NCBI GenBank assembly: GCA_934647195.1
Contig: CAKUFD010000002.1
Location: forward strand, 186,001 to 250,000
DNA: 64,000 nt
Direction: 5' to 3'
Source: an uncultured Collinsella sp.
GTDB taxonomy: Bacteria; Actinomycetota; Coriobacteriia; Coriobacteriales; Coriobacteriaceae
Shown: piece after piece, positions 14,331 to 51,651 of the stretch
Layout: every line of letters begins with the position of its first letter
How positions within the stretch are numbered: the first letter of the stretch is position 1
The notes under the pieces: generated by a model
What the model was told of the DNA's origin: nothing
What the model saw: the letters and a program-made list of their open reading frames with translations, nothing else
Database searches by the model: none
Position numbers and translations under genes: made by a program

Positions 14331-16070
14331 GTGGCTACCACTAAGCGCGCGATGAAAATGTCCAGGCTTTACGCACCTACGCTCAAAGAAGATCCAGCAG
14401 AGGCTGAGCTTGCAAGCCATCGCCTGCTTCTTCGCGCTGGCATGATTCGTAAGGAAGCAGCTGGTCTTTATACCTATCTTCCTCTTGCCTGGCGCGCGAT
14501 TCGCAAAATCGAAGATATTGTTCGCGACGAGATGGACAGCCATGACGCCCAGGAGCTCATGATGCCCATTATGGTCGACGCTGAGCTTTGGCGCGAAAGC
14601 GGCCGTATTGACGCCTACGGCAAGGAGCTCGTGCGTTTCGACGATCGTCATGGACGCGAGTTTGTCTTAGGCCCCACGCATGAAGAGACGGTCACGGCCC
14701 TCGTGCGCAATGAGCTGCGCAGCTACAAGCAGCTTCCCGTCAATCTCTATCATATCCAGGATAAATTCCGCGATGAGTTCCGTCCTCGCTACGGCCTTAT
14801 GCGCGGGCGCGAATTCATCATGAAGGATGCGTATTCCTTCTCCGCAACGCAGGAAAGCCTGCAGGAAGAGTACGACAAGATGAAAGAGGCGTACGCCAAT
14901 ATCTGCACTCGCTGCGGCGTGCACGCCCTTCCCGTCGTGGCAGACTCTGGAGAGATTGGCGGTGATACCTCGGTCGAGTACATGGCGCTCGCCGATGCGG
15001 GCGAGGCAAGTCTTGTCTACTGCGACGACTGTGGATTTGCCGGTGATGACGAGGCGGCAAGTACTCAGGTGACCGTCACCGAGGGCCCCGGTGACGGAAC
15101 GCTTGAGAAGGTGGAGACCCCGGGCCTCGGCACCATCGAAGCCGTTGCCGAGTTCTTTGGATTCCCCAAGAACGGCACGCGCAAGTCGCTCGCCCTTATT
15201 GACTCCGAAGGTAAACCGGTTGTTGCGATCGTTCCCGGCGATCACGAGCTTAACGAGTGCAAGGCAGAGCATGTCTTTGGCAAGGACTATCGCATGATGA
15301 CCGAAGAAGAGCTTCAGGAGTTTGGCCTGTTTAAGGGCTTCATCGGTCCGGTAAATCTCCCTGCAGGCATCAAGCTCGTATGCGATTCCAGCCTCAAGGA
15401 ATCCAAGCGTTGGGCATGCGGCGCCAACGAGGTTGACTATCATTATACCGGTGCATGCCCCGATCGCGATTTCACGGTAGATGAGTGGGCGGACCTCGTG
15501 ACCGTACTCGCTGGTGACCCGTGCCCGCATTGCGGTAAGCCCCTTTCCGCCGCCCGCGGCATCGAGGTCTCCCAGGTATTCCAGCTCGGAACCAAGTACT
15601 CCGAGGCAATGGGCGCCACCTTTATGGACGAGGACGGCAAGGAAAAGCCTTTGATCATGGGTTGTTACGGTGTAGGCGTTTCTCGTACGCTCGCTGCCAT
15701 CGTTGAGCAGCACAATGACGAGAATGGCATTATCTGGCCTGTCTCCGTCGCTCCCTACGAGGTCTCCGTTATCCCCCTTGATCCCAAGAAAGAGGATTGC
15801 GCCGCAGCCACCGATAAGCTTGTTCAGGAACTCCTTGATGCCGGCCTAGATGTTGTCGTTGACGATCGTGACGAGCGCCCCGGATTCAAGTTTGCCGATA
15901 ACGACCTTATGGGCTTCCCGTATCAGATCGTCATTGGCAAGCGTGGCCTTAAGAACGGTACGTTTGAGCTCAAGGATCGCGCGACAGGGGAGCGCGAGGA
16001 CATTTCAATCGAAGAAGCTGCTACAATTGTTGCCGCACGCGTCAACGAAGCGAAACTAGCACTTGTTTAG
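14331..16070 (+). CDS. proS: Prolyl-tRNA synthetase, bacterial type with editing insert
   Basis: Charges tRNA-Pro. The 579-aa protein has class II motif 2 (KFRDEFRPRYGLMRGREFIMKD), an INS editing domain between motifs 2 and 3 (about residues 225-400, including GTRKSLAL and HELNE), motif 3 (GCYGVGVSRTLAAI) and a C-terminal anticodon-binding domain. The start is GTG 14331 after TTTGAGGAG. It is separated from ispG by 55 bases and may have its own promoter. Confidence 0.97.
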   Translation: MATTKRAMKMSRLYAPTLKEDPAEAELASHRLLLRAGMIRKEAAGLYTYLPLAWRAIRKIEDIVRDEMDSHDAQELMMPIMVDAELWRESGRIDAYGKELVRFDDRHGREFVLGPTHEETVTALVRNELRSYKQLPVNLYHIQDKFRDEFRPRYGLMRGREFIMKDAYSFSATQESLQEEYDKMKEAYANICTRCGVHALPVVADSGEIGGDTSVEYMALADAGEASLVYCDDCGFAGDDEAASTQVTVTEGPGDGTLEKVETPGLGTIEAVAEFFGFPKNGTRKSLALIDSEGKPVVAIVPGDHELNECKAEHVFGKDYRMMTEEELQEFGLFKGFIGPVNLPAGIKLVCDSSLKESKRWACGANEVDYHYTGACPDRDFTVDEWADLVTVLAGDPCPHCGKPLSAARGIEVSQVFQLGTKYSEAMGATFMDEDGKEKPLIMGCYGVGVSRTLAAIVEQHNDENGIIWPVSVAPYEVSVIPLDPKKEDCAAATDKLVQELLDAGLDVVVDDRDERPGFKFADNDLMGFPYQIVIGKRGLKNGTFELKDRATGEREDISIEEAATIVAARVNEAKLALV

Positions 16071-16975: not shown

Positions 16976-17051
16976 GGGCTCATGGCGCAACGGTTAGCGC
17001 AGGGGACTCATAATCCCTGGGTTGCAGGTTCGAATCCTGCTGGGCCCACCA
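16976..17051 (+). tRNA. tRNA with CAT anticodon (Met elongator or Ile2); prophage integration site
   Basis: A complete 76-nt cloverleaf: the acceptor GGGCTCA pairs with TGGGCCC, anticodon loop CTCATAA, T loop TTCGAAT, encoded CCA. Base 1 pairs with base 72, so it is not the initiator. Elongator Met and lysidine-modified Ile2 cannot be told apart by eye. From base 17006 (anticodon loop region) onwards the sequence is repeated exactly at 51589, marking this as the phage attachment gene; the tRNA stays intact. Confidence 0.93.
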
Positions 17052-17068
17052 TCAAAACAGCAGGCCGG
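17006..17068 (+). repeat. Left att core (63 bp, identical to 51589-51651)
   Basis: It covers the anticodon arm, T arm and 3' end of the CAT tRNA plus 17 bases beyond CCA. The bases just outside both copies differ, which sets the limits. The exact crossover point within the 63 bp is not known. Confidence 0.95.
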
Positions 17069-48774: not shown

Positions 48775-48863
48775 GCGACGAGGACATCAAGTCCAAGGAC
48801 GGCGGCGACGGAGACGGCCCGGCCGACATCTGCGAGCCCATCGAGGTGACCGCCCGTGGGTAG
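48771..48863 (+). CDS. Short acidic peptide between holin and endolysin, 30 aa
   Basis: MSDEDIKSKDGGDGDG...ARG; the ATG overlaps the holin stop and its own stop follows the endolysin GTG. It may just couple translation; no function known. Confidence 0.4.
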   Translation: MSDEDIKSKDGGDGDGPADICEPIEVTARG

Positions 48864-49737
48864 AGACATCCTCGACATCGAGCGCGGCGAGATCGGCTAC
48901 AGCCGATGGACCGACCCGGGAGTCGGCACGAAGTATACGCGCTACCTCGACAAGGTCAAGCCGGGGCACCATGCGTACAACGGCGAGCCGTTCTGCGCGG
49001 CCGGCCAGAGCTGGAGCTTCGGCCAGGGCGGCTACAAGGGACCCGGCATGCCAACGGCGGCGTGCGGCGACATCCGCGCAGCGGCGAAGCGGCAGGGCCT
49101 CGTCGTGGCCGACAGGCGCTCCGCGCGCCCGCGCGACATCGTGCTGTTCCGCTGGGACGGGCACATCGACGACGACACCTACAGCGACCACGTCGGCATG
49201 GTCGAGCTCAACCTGGGCCGCTCGCGCGGCATCCAGACCATCGAATACAACACCGGCAACGGCCGCGTCATGCGCCGCACGCGCGACTGGTCGGTCGTGC
49301 AGTACATCATCCGTCCGGGCTACGGCTCCGGCGCCGCACCCGCGCCGGTCAAGCCCGCGAGGCAGATCATCACGGTCGACGGCCTGTGGGGGAGCAACAC
49401 GACGACCTCGCTGCAGGTGCAGGCGGGATGCCCCTACGTCGACGGCGTCATCAGCCGCCAGAACCCGCAGCACCGCAGCCGCCTGAAGGGCTGCACGGTC
49501 GGCTGGGAGTACGTCTCGCCCGACGGCGAGGCCCCCGGCTCCTACGCCATCAGGGCGCTCCAGAAGAAGCTGGGCGTTACCGTCGACGGCATCATCGGAC
49601 CGGCGACCATCAACGCGCTCATCGCCTGGGGCATGAGGCACGGGAGCGGCGCGACCAAGCTGGACGGACGCCTGGACTGGGCGTCGCCCACGATCAAGAC
49701 GTTCCAGCGCTGCCTCAACGAGGGCGCGTTCTTCTAA
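48856..49737 (+). CDS. Endolysin: CHAP amidase/endopeptidase plus peptidoglycan-binding domain
   Basis: In this 293-aa protein residues 1-155 form a CHAP domain: Cys in EPFCAAGQSWS, His in YSDHVGMVE, and the third residue in IEYNTGNG. Residues 175-290 contain a peptidoglycan-binding unit (ALQKKLGVTVDGIIGPATINALI) and a second, weaker repeat (DGLWGSNTTTSLQ). It hydrolyses the host wall at the end of the lytic cycle. Start GTG 48856. Confidence 0.88.
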   Translation: MGRDILDIERGEIGYSRWTDPGVGTKYTRYLDKVKPGHHAYNGEPFCAAGQSWSFGQGGYKGPGMPTAACGDIRAAAKRQGLVVADRRSARPRDIVLFRWDGHIDDDTYSDHVGMVELNLGRSRGIQTIEYNTGNGRVMRRTRDWSVVQYIIRPGYGSGAAPAPVKPARQIITVDGLWGSNTTTSLQVQAGCPYVDGVISRQNPQHRSRLKGCTVGWEYVSPDGEAPGSYAIRALQKKLGVTVDGIIGPATINALIAWGMRHGSGATKLDGRLDWASPTIKTFQRCLNEGAFF

Positions 49738-49751
49738 GCCTCCCCTGCATC

Positions 49752-49777
49752 GGCCCCGCCTCGGCGGGGCCTTTTTT
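49752..49777 (+). terminator. Intrinsic terminator after the endolysin
   Basis: GGCCCCGC pairs with GCGGGGCC around CTCG, followed by TTTTTT. Confidence 0.9.
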
Positions 49778-49807
49778 ACCTGGGAAAACTCAAGATTCCC
49801 GATTGTC

Positions 49808-49829
49808 TATACCCCCTTTGGGGTATAAT
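49808..49829 (+). promoter_or_regulatory. Palindromic promoter element A
   Basis: TATACCCC (49808-49815) and GGGGTATA (49820-49827) flank CTTT; TATAAT (49824-49829) overlaps the right arm. Upstream GGGAAA...ATTCCC and downstream ATCAACGACAGGG...CCCCTGCAATCC match element B at 50203. A repressor or activator binding the palindrome would control the -10 box directly. Confidence 0.65.
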
Positions 49830-49880
49830 AGTATCAACGACAGGGACGGAAGGCCCCTGCAATCCTGATGGGAGAAGACA

Positions 49881-50162
49881 ATGTACGAGATCAAGCGAAT
49901 CAACGACACCGACATCCTCGAGCAGAACGCCCTGCGCAAGGTCCCTTGCATCACCGAGAGCGGCGAGTGCTGCATCGTCACCAGCGTCCGCATCTTCGAC
50001 GACGGCGAGCGCTTCGAGGTCATCGGCGGCAGCGACGTCAACGTCTTCGCCACCGAGCGCGAGGCCAGCGAGTGGGTCGCAAAGATGATGGCGGGCAAGC
50101 GCGACGCGGACCTGGCTATCAAGCACGCGTACACGGTGCGCTTCCATCAGGTCCAGCTCTAG
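49881..50162 (+). CDS. Orphan small protein, 93 aa, right end of prophage
   Basis: No family recognised. Alpha/beta pattern: a short N-terminal strand, RKVPCITESGECCIVTSVRIF, RFEVIGGSDVNVFATEREASEWVAKMM. It has its own palindromic promoter (element A), lies after the lysis terminator, outside all phage structural modules, and is followed by another such unit. This is the classical position of accessory genes such as anti-defence or lysogenic-conversion genes. Confidence 0.6.
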   Translation: MYEIKRINDTDILEQNALRKVPCITESGECCIVTSVRIFDDGERFEVIGGSDVNVFATEREASEWVAKMMAGKRDADLAIKHAYTVRFHQVQL

Positions 50163-50202
50163 CTGGGAAAAGGGCGGGAAAGTTTAAAAATTCCCGCCCA
50201 CT

Positions 50203-50225
50203 TATACCCCCAAAGGGGGTATAAT
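50203..50225 (+). promoter_or_regulatory. Palindromic promoter element B
   Basis: TATACCCCC (50203-50211) and GGGGGTATA (50215-50223) are perfect inverted copies around AAA; TATAAT is at 50220-50225. It is preceded by GGGCGGGAA/TTCCCGCCC (50173-50199). The transcribed leader after it repeats that of element A. Confidence 0.7.
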
Positions 50226-50278
50226 GTAAACAACGACAGGGGCGAAGGGCACCTGCAATCCGGATAGGAGAGAAGATC

Positions 50279-50935
50279 ATGAAGAACATCAAGAAGAGCC
50301 TCACCCGAGACGACGTCATCAAGAACGGCGAGTACATTGGATTCACCGAGTACGAGAGCGGGGCCACCGAGCAGCGCTGGCTTATCGACGGCCTAGTTTT
50401 TGCCGAGACCTGCACCGCAGACGGCCGCCGCTCCGGCTTCCGCTGCATGGGCAAGGCATCCAAGGTCTTGAAGCAGGCGGAAGCCGAAGAGGTTGAATTC
50501 GCGAAAGAGGACGATACCATGGCCACCGAGAACGACGGCACCATCACCTGCGAGGTATACGAGGACGGGGCCGGTTACCTCTGGCTGTACACGATCAAGG
50601 GCGAAGAGGTGACCTACGCGTGCTGCTACAGCCCGCTCGAGGCCTACGAGGCGGCGTGCAGCTACGTTGGAATCCTCGACCAGTGCCTCGACCCGGTCAA
50701 GGATGGCTGGGACTGCGGCAGCATCGTCGATGATATGCTCGCCGAGGACCCGACCATGACCCTTGGGAAGCTTTACGAGAGGGAGGCGGGCCGCATGATC
50801 GCGAGCGGCGACCTCGGCGCGGGCTACTGCGATCCAGCCTACACGGCGGCATCCCTCGACACCGTGTCGCTCGGAAACGCGGGCCGCGAGTTCTGCGAGA
50901 CCGTCGACCCGTCGCTCAAGGAGGATGACGAGTAG
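50279..50935 (+). CDS. Orphan acidic protein, 218 aa, right end of prophage
   Basis: No family recognised. It is acidic overall. Residues 1-60 (LTRDDVIKNGEYIGFTEYESGATEQRWL) are beta-rich; residues 85-135 contain YEDGAGYLWLYTIKGEEVTYACCYSPLEAYEAACSY; the rest is helical. Driven by element B. An ATG at residue 81 (MATEND) could give a shorter product. Position and promoter group it with the 93-aa gene and the following HTH gene. Confidence 0.6.
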   Translation: MKNIKKSLTRDDVIKNGEYIGFTEYESGATEQRWLIDGLVFAETCTADGRRSGFRCMGKASKVLKQAEAEEVEFAKEDDTMATENDGTITCEVYEDGAGYLWLYTIKGEEVTYACCYSPLEAYEAACSYVGILDQCLDPVKDGWDCGSIVDDMLAEDPTMTLGKLYEREAGRMIASGDLGAGYCDPAYTAASLDTVSLGNAGREFCETVDPSLKEDDE

Positions 50936-50961
50936 CGGCCGCAAGGCACAAGATACGCAAG

Positions 50962-50992
50962 GAAGCGCCCCCGCCGAGCACGGGGGCGCTTC
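50962..50992 (+). terminator. GC-rich hairpin before the HTH gene
   Basis: An 11-bp stem (GAAGCGCCCCC with GGGGGCGCTTC) with a nine-base loop and no T run. It may be a terminator-like structure or attenuate the HTH gene. Confidence 0.5.
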
Positions 50993-51012
50993 GCTCATAT
51001 ATAGGAGGAGAT

Positions 51013-51468
51013 ATGGAAGAGGCATACGACGACACGAGAAGCAAGGCGGACTTCAAGGCGCTGCGCGAGCGCGTGGGCTTGTCGCAGCAGGACGTTGCGA
51101 GCGCCCTGGACGTCAACATCAAGACCGTAAAGAACTGGGAGAATCCAAAGCAGGAACGTTACCTCATCCCGGTAGATGCGTGGGACTACCTCGAGGACGC
51201 GGCGGAGCTTCAGCGGCAGCAGGTGTCCTACGCCTGCGCCGTCATCGCGCAGCAAGTGGAGGCCTTCGGCATGGAGCCCGTGACCGTGCCGATCACGTAC
51301 TACCGAGACCAGAAGATGTACGACGAATTCGGGCGCGACCCCGGCCCATTCGGCCAGGCCAACGCGAACGCCCGCGCCATCGGGTACGAACTCGAGCGGC
51401 GCGGAATCGGCGTCGAGTACCGCTACCCATGCGAGGGGGCCATTAAAACGCCGGGCAGCGGGTACTAG
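51013..51468 (+). CDS. XRE-type HTH protein with YdiL/Aca2-like C-terminal region
   Basis: Residues 12-55 of this 151-aa protein (FKALRERVGLSQQDVASALDVNIKTVKNWENPK) are a helix-turn-helix. The C-terminal half (VPITYYRDQKMYDEFGRDPG...NARAIGYELERRGI) resembles the YdiL/DUF1870 layout used by some anti-CRISPR-associated regulators, judged by eye only. AGGAGGAG precedes ATG 51013. It is the last phage gene, 120 bases from the right att core, and a natural candidate to bind palindromes A and B upstream. Confidence 0.7.
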   Translation: MEEAYDDTRSKADFKALRERVGLSQQDVASALDVNIKTVKNWENPKQERYLIPVDAWDYLEDAAELQRQQVSYACAVIAQQVEAFGMEPVTVPITYYRDQKMYDEFGRDPGPFGQANANARAIGYELERRGIGVEYRYPCEGAIKTPGSGY

Positions 51469-51588
51469 GTCGGGGCGCGGCTCTGCATGTCTCCACGCCC
51501 CGGGCGGTATAGGGGAGAATAGGGCGGTTTCCAGTCCGCGAAAATGTATAACCGCAGGTAGGAGCGCCACCGGTATCCCTGGGCGCGA

Positions 51589-51651
51589 ACTCATAATCCC
51601 TGGGTTGCAGGTTCGAATCCTGCTGGGCCCACCATCAAAACAGCAGGCCGG
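51589..51651 (+). repeat. Right att core (63 bp, identical to 17006-17068)
   Basis: A partial copy of the CAT tRNA: anticodon arm to beyond CCA. There is no 5' half, so it is not a functional tRNA gene. Confidence 0.95.

Follow-up and report, generated by a model that had tools for sequence, protein, structure and literature searches.

What is encoded at the right end of a prophage carried by an uncultured Collinsella sp., and does the arrangement amount, as an original prediction had it, to an anti-defence locus of the anti-CRISPR (Acr) and anti-CRISPR-associated (Aca) kind? The prophage lies within a stretch of 64,000 nucleotides (nt) of contig CAKUFD010000002.1 (hereafter the window). Between the terminator of its lysin gene and its right attachment site (attR) there are three genes, coding for two orphan proteins of 93 and 218 amino acids (aa) and a helix-turn-helix (HTH) protein of 151 aa; these three open reading frames (ORFs), the terminator and attR were all found where they had been predicted (Table 1). 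We consider this to be, with good probability, an aca-type accessory locus of a temperate phage with a Coriobacteriales (probably Coriobacteriaceae) host, in which the HTH protein represses two promoters, each driving one small gene that acts against bacterial defences, an anti-CRISPR being the likeliest kind. The locus is aca-type by its gene layout, the predicted fold of its regulator and the association of the regulator's family with Acr relatives; covariation of operator and recognition helix and similarity of leaders between loci were also observed. The 93- and 218-aa proteins are good though unproven anti-CRISPR candidates, an activity we infer because they have duplicated switch sequences in common and adjoin a regulator of a kind also seen close to genes for established CRISPR inhibitors.

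The HTH regulator and its neighbourhoods

The 151-aa protein combines an N-terminal HTH with a C-terminal domain of predicted Aca2 fold, as in the Aca2/YdiL structural family, and this prediction bears out the proposed likeness of its C-terminal half to YdiL/Aca2. Its structural relatives, namely Aca2 of Pectobacterium phage ZF40, YdiL and SO3848 (PF08965), are 11-18% identical to it; all three are treated in a part of PMC8434428. Profile comparison with the Aca family gave a divided answer: the window protein had no match to Pfam PF08965 (Aca2_YdiL) at E <= 1, and so did not pass the family cut-off, while 7 of 35 aligned relatives matched it at E <= 0.01. The window protein is an Aca2-fold relative, not an Aca2. 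Unlike that of ZF40, its locus has a CCCC-GGGG operator, Coriobacteriales hosts, and a promoter-leader cassette repeated before each orphan. The family was present in 22 of 395 Coriobacteriales genomes at E <= 1e-12 (up to 10 candidates per genome being scored), and one homologue is named as from Collinsella aerofaciens.

We compared 25 distinct HTH loci, consisting of the window, 22 of 24 genome matches, and the viral contigs L002 and L003; duplicates or near-duplicates (L059 of L001, L072 of L071, L045 of L043) were dropped and the weak viral loci L004-L007 left out. By hand count, 16 of the 25 have a same-strand gene, uncharacterised or Acr-like, whose end lies 0-261 nt ahead of the HTH match, so that, as is typical of Aca, one HTH family goes with a variety of small genes across several mobile elements. 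Fifteen of these upstream genes encode fewer than 250 aa, and that of L058 encodes 352 aa. When the 25 upstream proteins were compared all against all, only two related pairs emerged (L058/L071 and the window 218-aa protein/L064); judged by sequence, the upstream proteins are mostly unrelated to each other. Several loci adjoin tRNA, or lysin- or integrase-like genes (named by eye). L058 and L071 have in common an orphan family of 208-217 aa (phmmer 5e-35), itself another anti-defence candidate.

These neighbourhoods bear on the idea of a toxin-antitoxin or superinfection-immunity unit in which the HTH protein would be antitoxin or immunity repressor, which we regard as the most remote of the explanations considered. 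HTH antitoxins do resemble the N-terminal domain of the window protein, but the neighbours vary while the HTH gene persists, the orphans match no toxin family, and two promoters, one per orphan, do not fit a toxin-antitoxin operon.

Anti-CRISPR relatives beside the regulator

As the original prediction had it, the small genes are unrecognised: neither orphan matched a Pfam, PADLOC, PHROGs or NCBIfam model at E <= 0.001. The 218-aa protein consists of an N-terminal module of about 60 aa, common to P0002 and P0003, and a C-terminal module common to the orphan adjoining the HTH relative in L064. A 127-aa homologue of this C-terminal module occurs at L179 in G079, a genome in which no HTH of the window family was found.

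Twenty upstream proteins besides the two window orphans were scanned against Pfam, those of L002 (131 aa), L071 (164 aa), L074 (149 aa) and L075 (133 aa) being left out. The single match above a curated cut-off was to AcrIC5 (84 bits; cut-off 27), in a 135-aa protein of L062, whose gene lies two genes upstream of the HTH gene with a 93-aa gene in between. This intervening gene (286 to 5 nt 5' of the HTH gene) encodes a product weakly like the C-terminal half of Aca2_YdiL (E 0.011, below the cut-off). AcrIC5 was found in 5 of the 395 genomes, in G260 (L062) within the HTH operon and in G306 (L042/L079) inside the same ORF as the HTH, the 460-aa product of which carries an HTH of the window family followed by an AcrIC5 domain and, at the C-terminus, a repeat region that looks like DUF285 repeats. 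The AcrIC5 domain (PF22147) is complete in both the operon gene and the fusion; the window's own orphans do not match it. At L058, the 352-aa protein encoded directly upstream of the HTH gene matches AcrVA2 in the PDB (7ci1; E 1.2e-4, only 24.5 bits and no family model match), aligning over residues 84-335 with a common PHxRRxHW. The HTH gene lies 3' of an acr-like gene in two relatives, and 3' of orphans in the window.

According to a part of PMC7913775, Pseudomonas AcrIC5 inhibits the type I-C system of Eggerthella lenta and has homologues in Cryptobacterium and Eggerthella. AcaFinder, in the portion of PMC9765179 concerned, predicted four Aca families of Actinobacteria, all beside AcrIC5; there, too, HTH genes lie next to AcrIC5 in Actinobacteria or in phages of these, and, compared by description only, the window family may or may not be among them. 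AcrIC9 is discussed in a section of PMC10478522. The open literature that we searched held no paper with both anti-CRISPR and Collinsella, and few with anti-CRISPR and Coriobacter or Eggerthella lenta.

The same repressor logic could serve orphans that are other accessory proteins, active in anti-restriction, superinfection exclusion or lysogenic conversion. Most neighbours are orphans without any family, the spacer test of the window was negative (see below), and in one survey, in the part of PMC9410906 that reports it, only 35 of 1223 Aca2-like proteins had upstream acr genes. Against this stand AcrIC5 as the sole neighbour of the 20 above a curated Pfam cut-off, the further AcrVA2-like neighbour, and the fusion of one HTH to AcrIC5. 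We judge this alternative unlikely but serious, and an anti-CRISPR function of the orphans the better reading.

Promoter palindromes and recognition helices

The promoter-leader stretches of the two orphans form a 56-nt direct repeat, 82% identical, with one copy before each gene, which includes a palindrome over TATAAT, a leader able to form two hairpins, and a ribosome-binding site (RBS). A palindrome-overlapped promoter for each small gene had been claimed, and each palindrome does overlap a TATAAT. At both -10 boxes there is thus an inverted repeat inside the core promoter, as expected of an Aca target, with a similar arrangement at other loci; inverted repeats and repression by Aca proteins are treated in a part of PMC9410906. 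Compared with dinucleotide shuffles, palindromes 1 and 2 gave P = 0.027 and P = 0.003, respectively. A 23-bp pattern made from palindrome 2 (3 mismatches allowed) matched only palindrome 2, once per strand, with 0 expected by chance; palindrome 1 is one base shorter and so falls outside the pattern. The exact palindrome occurred in none of 176 collected loci and, together with the -10 box, in none of 65 genomes from the family closest to the host; one of these has, at L058, a near variant, TACACCCCC-TTT-GGGGGTATACT, ahead of its orphan operon.

Many first genes at the other loci carry a palindrome in or near the core promoter, and of 16 promoters compared with shuffles, 8 reached P < 0.05 singly and 8 did not. 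The HTH of L058, 62% identical to that of the window, goes with TACACCCCC-TTT-GGGGGTATA, nearly the window operator, and that of L060 with TATGCCCCC-CAA-GGGGGCATA. The recognition helices of these two proteins, the window protein and that of L071 have [IV]-K-T-[VI]-K in common; 10 other HTH proteins lack it, and their palindromes are of the kind GTCACC, TAGTCCT and GATACC. Helix and palindrome type were associated (Fisher P = 0.001, counts by eye), as were their distances (Mantel r = 0.44, P = 2.5e-4; 12 loci, hand-picked half-sites, that of L063 being TAGTCCT and different from its top-scoring palindrome, TACTATAG-GG-CTATAGTA). Operator sequence covaries with the recognition helix, a signal that shared descent of promoter and regulator would give just as direct recognition would.

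This covariation also bears on whether a host regulator binds the palindromes while the HTH protein has its targets elsewhere. The palindromes resemble the G/C-tract inverted repeats that serve as CsoR operators, but the operators at other loci track the recognition helix of the phage's own HTH, and the exact palindrome with its -10 box is absent from the host-family genomes, so we hold a host regulator to be very improbable. Repression by the phage HTH protein through the two palindromes is probable: as an Aca2/YdiL-fold repressor, presumably dimeric, it would bind the CCCC-GGGG palindromes over the -10 boxes and so damp the promoters of the two orphans.

Leader RNAs

Aca2 combines RNA and DNA control, acting through the leader as a translational brake. 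In the window, the hairpins common to the two leaders may likewise add a second, translational brake, to which the HTH protein would contribute by binding RNA; leader similarity makes such control possible, less so for the 93-aa gene. The leader of the 218-aa gene folds better than its shuffles (z -2.4 and -1.75), and 13 leaders jointly do so (Stouffer z -7.1), those of the 93-aa gene and L069 (both z about -0.9) and of L071 (+0.1) not standing out singly. A hairpin with a closing C-G (or U-G) pair and an A/G-rich loop, such as AAGGG, AAAGG, ACAAG or GAAGG, was present in 12 of 14 leaders and in 43 of 305 control ORF leaders (Fisher P = 1.6e-8), the motif having been defined after the data were seen; with a strict loop list the counts were 8 of 14 and 1 of 305. 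The fourteenth leader, that of L060, was first met among the controls and then reassigned to the positives; the gene start of L068 was re-chosen by hand. When 12 leaders (all but those of the 93-aa gene and L058, which lack the motif) were each aligned on the loop of the predicted fold, pairing was seen at 44 of 48 stem positions, and both sides of the stems showed changes (P = 5e-5); the test leans towards pairing, since the fold had guided the choice of each row. Several leaders have a second hairpin that takes in the RBS. L002, L064 and L075 are preceded by orphans and lack this leader. Birkholz et al. 2024 is listed among the references of PMC12456014 and PMC12948488.

Tentatively, a perhaps undescribed Aca2-fold family in Coriobacteriales phages might control a rotating anti-CRISPR set twice, by a promoter palindrome and by a leader RNA with an AAGG-like-loop hairpin and an RBS hairpin, the cassette having been copied before each window gene and the 93- and 218-aa proteins being two new Acr families; we rate this fuller picture as possible. 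If our reading is true, the HTH gene would serve as bait in the search for anti-CRISPRs among phages that infect gut bacteria like Collinsella and Eggerthella, and would put to the test whether joint control of RNA and DNA, as in Aca2, goes with this fold in general.

Weighing of the evidence and host CRISPR-Cas

The Aca-like anti-defence locus originally proposed is upheld in part: its Aca half stands on the predicted fold, the relatives near AcrIC5-domain and AcrVA2-like genes, the AcrIC5 fusion, and operators that follow the recognition helix. Several results weigh against our reading: (i) neither orphan has homology by sequence to a characterised Acr, and structural support failed to appear for the 93-aa protein, the only one whose fold was compared, with nothing significant among known Acr proteins; (ii) nine of the 25 HTH loci fell outside the count of 16 with such a gene upstream, namely L003 and L073 (by eye, behind a recombinase-like gene), L008 (where a 167-aa ORF lies 275 nt off), L066, L074, L040, L041, L043 and L042 (the fusion), three of the five AcrIC5 matches have no HTH of the window family in their 3-kb locus, and the AcrVA2-like protein of L058 matches no Pfam or NCBIfam model; (iii) no complete sigma-70 site emerged from a consensus scan of 49700-51600, where the two -10 boxes are perfect and the -35 boxes hence poor; the window HTH gene stands apart behind a strong hairpin and lacks its own palindrome; and the palindrome of L071, CCCCT-C-AGGGG, is weak and no better than chance (P = 0.47); (iv) the 93-aa gene has a leader without the loop motif, and its fold does not surpass those of shuffles (z 0.0 and -1.0), while no consensus pairs came out of aligning 10 leaders by sequence, so that the structure was not recovered; (v) half-sites, loop motif and leader register were picked by eye; (vi) cas1 was not found in G151, G260 and G306, the three genomes with Acr relatives; and (vii) among 333 spacers, a total that counts some twice, taken from 13 of the host family's 15 Cas9 or type I-C loci, none matched the window over more than 16 nt, a result no different from that of a reversed control.

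In the 65 host-family genomes, Cas9 was above cut-off in 11 and type I-C Csd1 in 4; Cas12a was found in none, in a search without a positive control. The association with host CRISPR that had been suggested is weak, with cas1 in 9 of the 22 HTH-bearing genomes (a count without a background rate) and no clear spacer match to the window. The anti-CRISPR reading gains little from these host results and is not excluded by them. Prophages and spacers of E. lenta are treated in a part of PMC8778435. At L059, positions 15760-15779 match a type I-C spacer from a different genome (L083) perfectly over 20 nt, a little beyond the level of the control.

Prophage setting

The prophage is bounded by a 63-bp direct repeat (Table 1). 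In its right flank, the region of an ABC-F gene, the closest of the 395 genomes is 86% identical.

Table 1. Features of the prophage right end and its boundaries (window positions)
Feature	Position	Strand	Remarks
attL	17006..17068	+	63-bp direct repeat in 3' end of tRNA-Met gene (16976-17051)
Phage lysin, left neighbour	48856..49737	+	Peptidoglycan-binding domain above cut-off; CHAP below cut-off
Terminator 3' of lysin gene	49752..49771	+	
Putative operator palindrome 1	49808..49827	.	TATACCCC-CTTT-GGGGTATA; over -10 box TATAAT 49824-49829
Leader of 93-aa gene	49841..49874	+	Hairpin 49841-49859, then short hairpin at RBS
93-aa orphan, candidate anti-defence protein	49881..50162	+	No known family
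Second inverted repeat 5' of promoter 2	50172..50199	.	GGGCGGGAAA / ATTCCCGCCC
Putative operator palindrome 2	50202..50224	.	TTATACCCCC-AAA-GGGGGTATAA; over -10 box TATAAT 50220-50225
Leader of 218-aa gene	50237..50271	+	Hairpin 50237-50255, closing C-G, loop GAAGG, then short hairpin at RBS
218-aa orphan	50279..50935	+	Two modules; isoelectric point 4.2
Strong intergenic hairpin just 5' of HTH gene	50962..50992	+	No T run
HTH protein, 151 aa, aca-type regulator	51013..51468	+	Aca2/YdiL fold predicted
attR	51589..51651	+	63-bp direct repeat

The hairpin just 5' of the HTH gene is very stable (stretch z -3.65); strong hairpins in this place, not seen in L001, L058 and L062, also occur in L061, L063, L068, L069 and L070.
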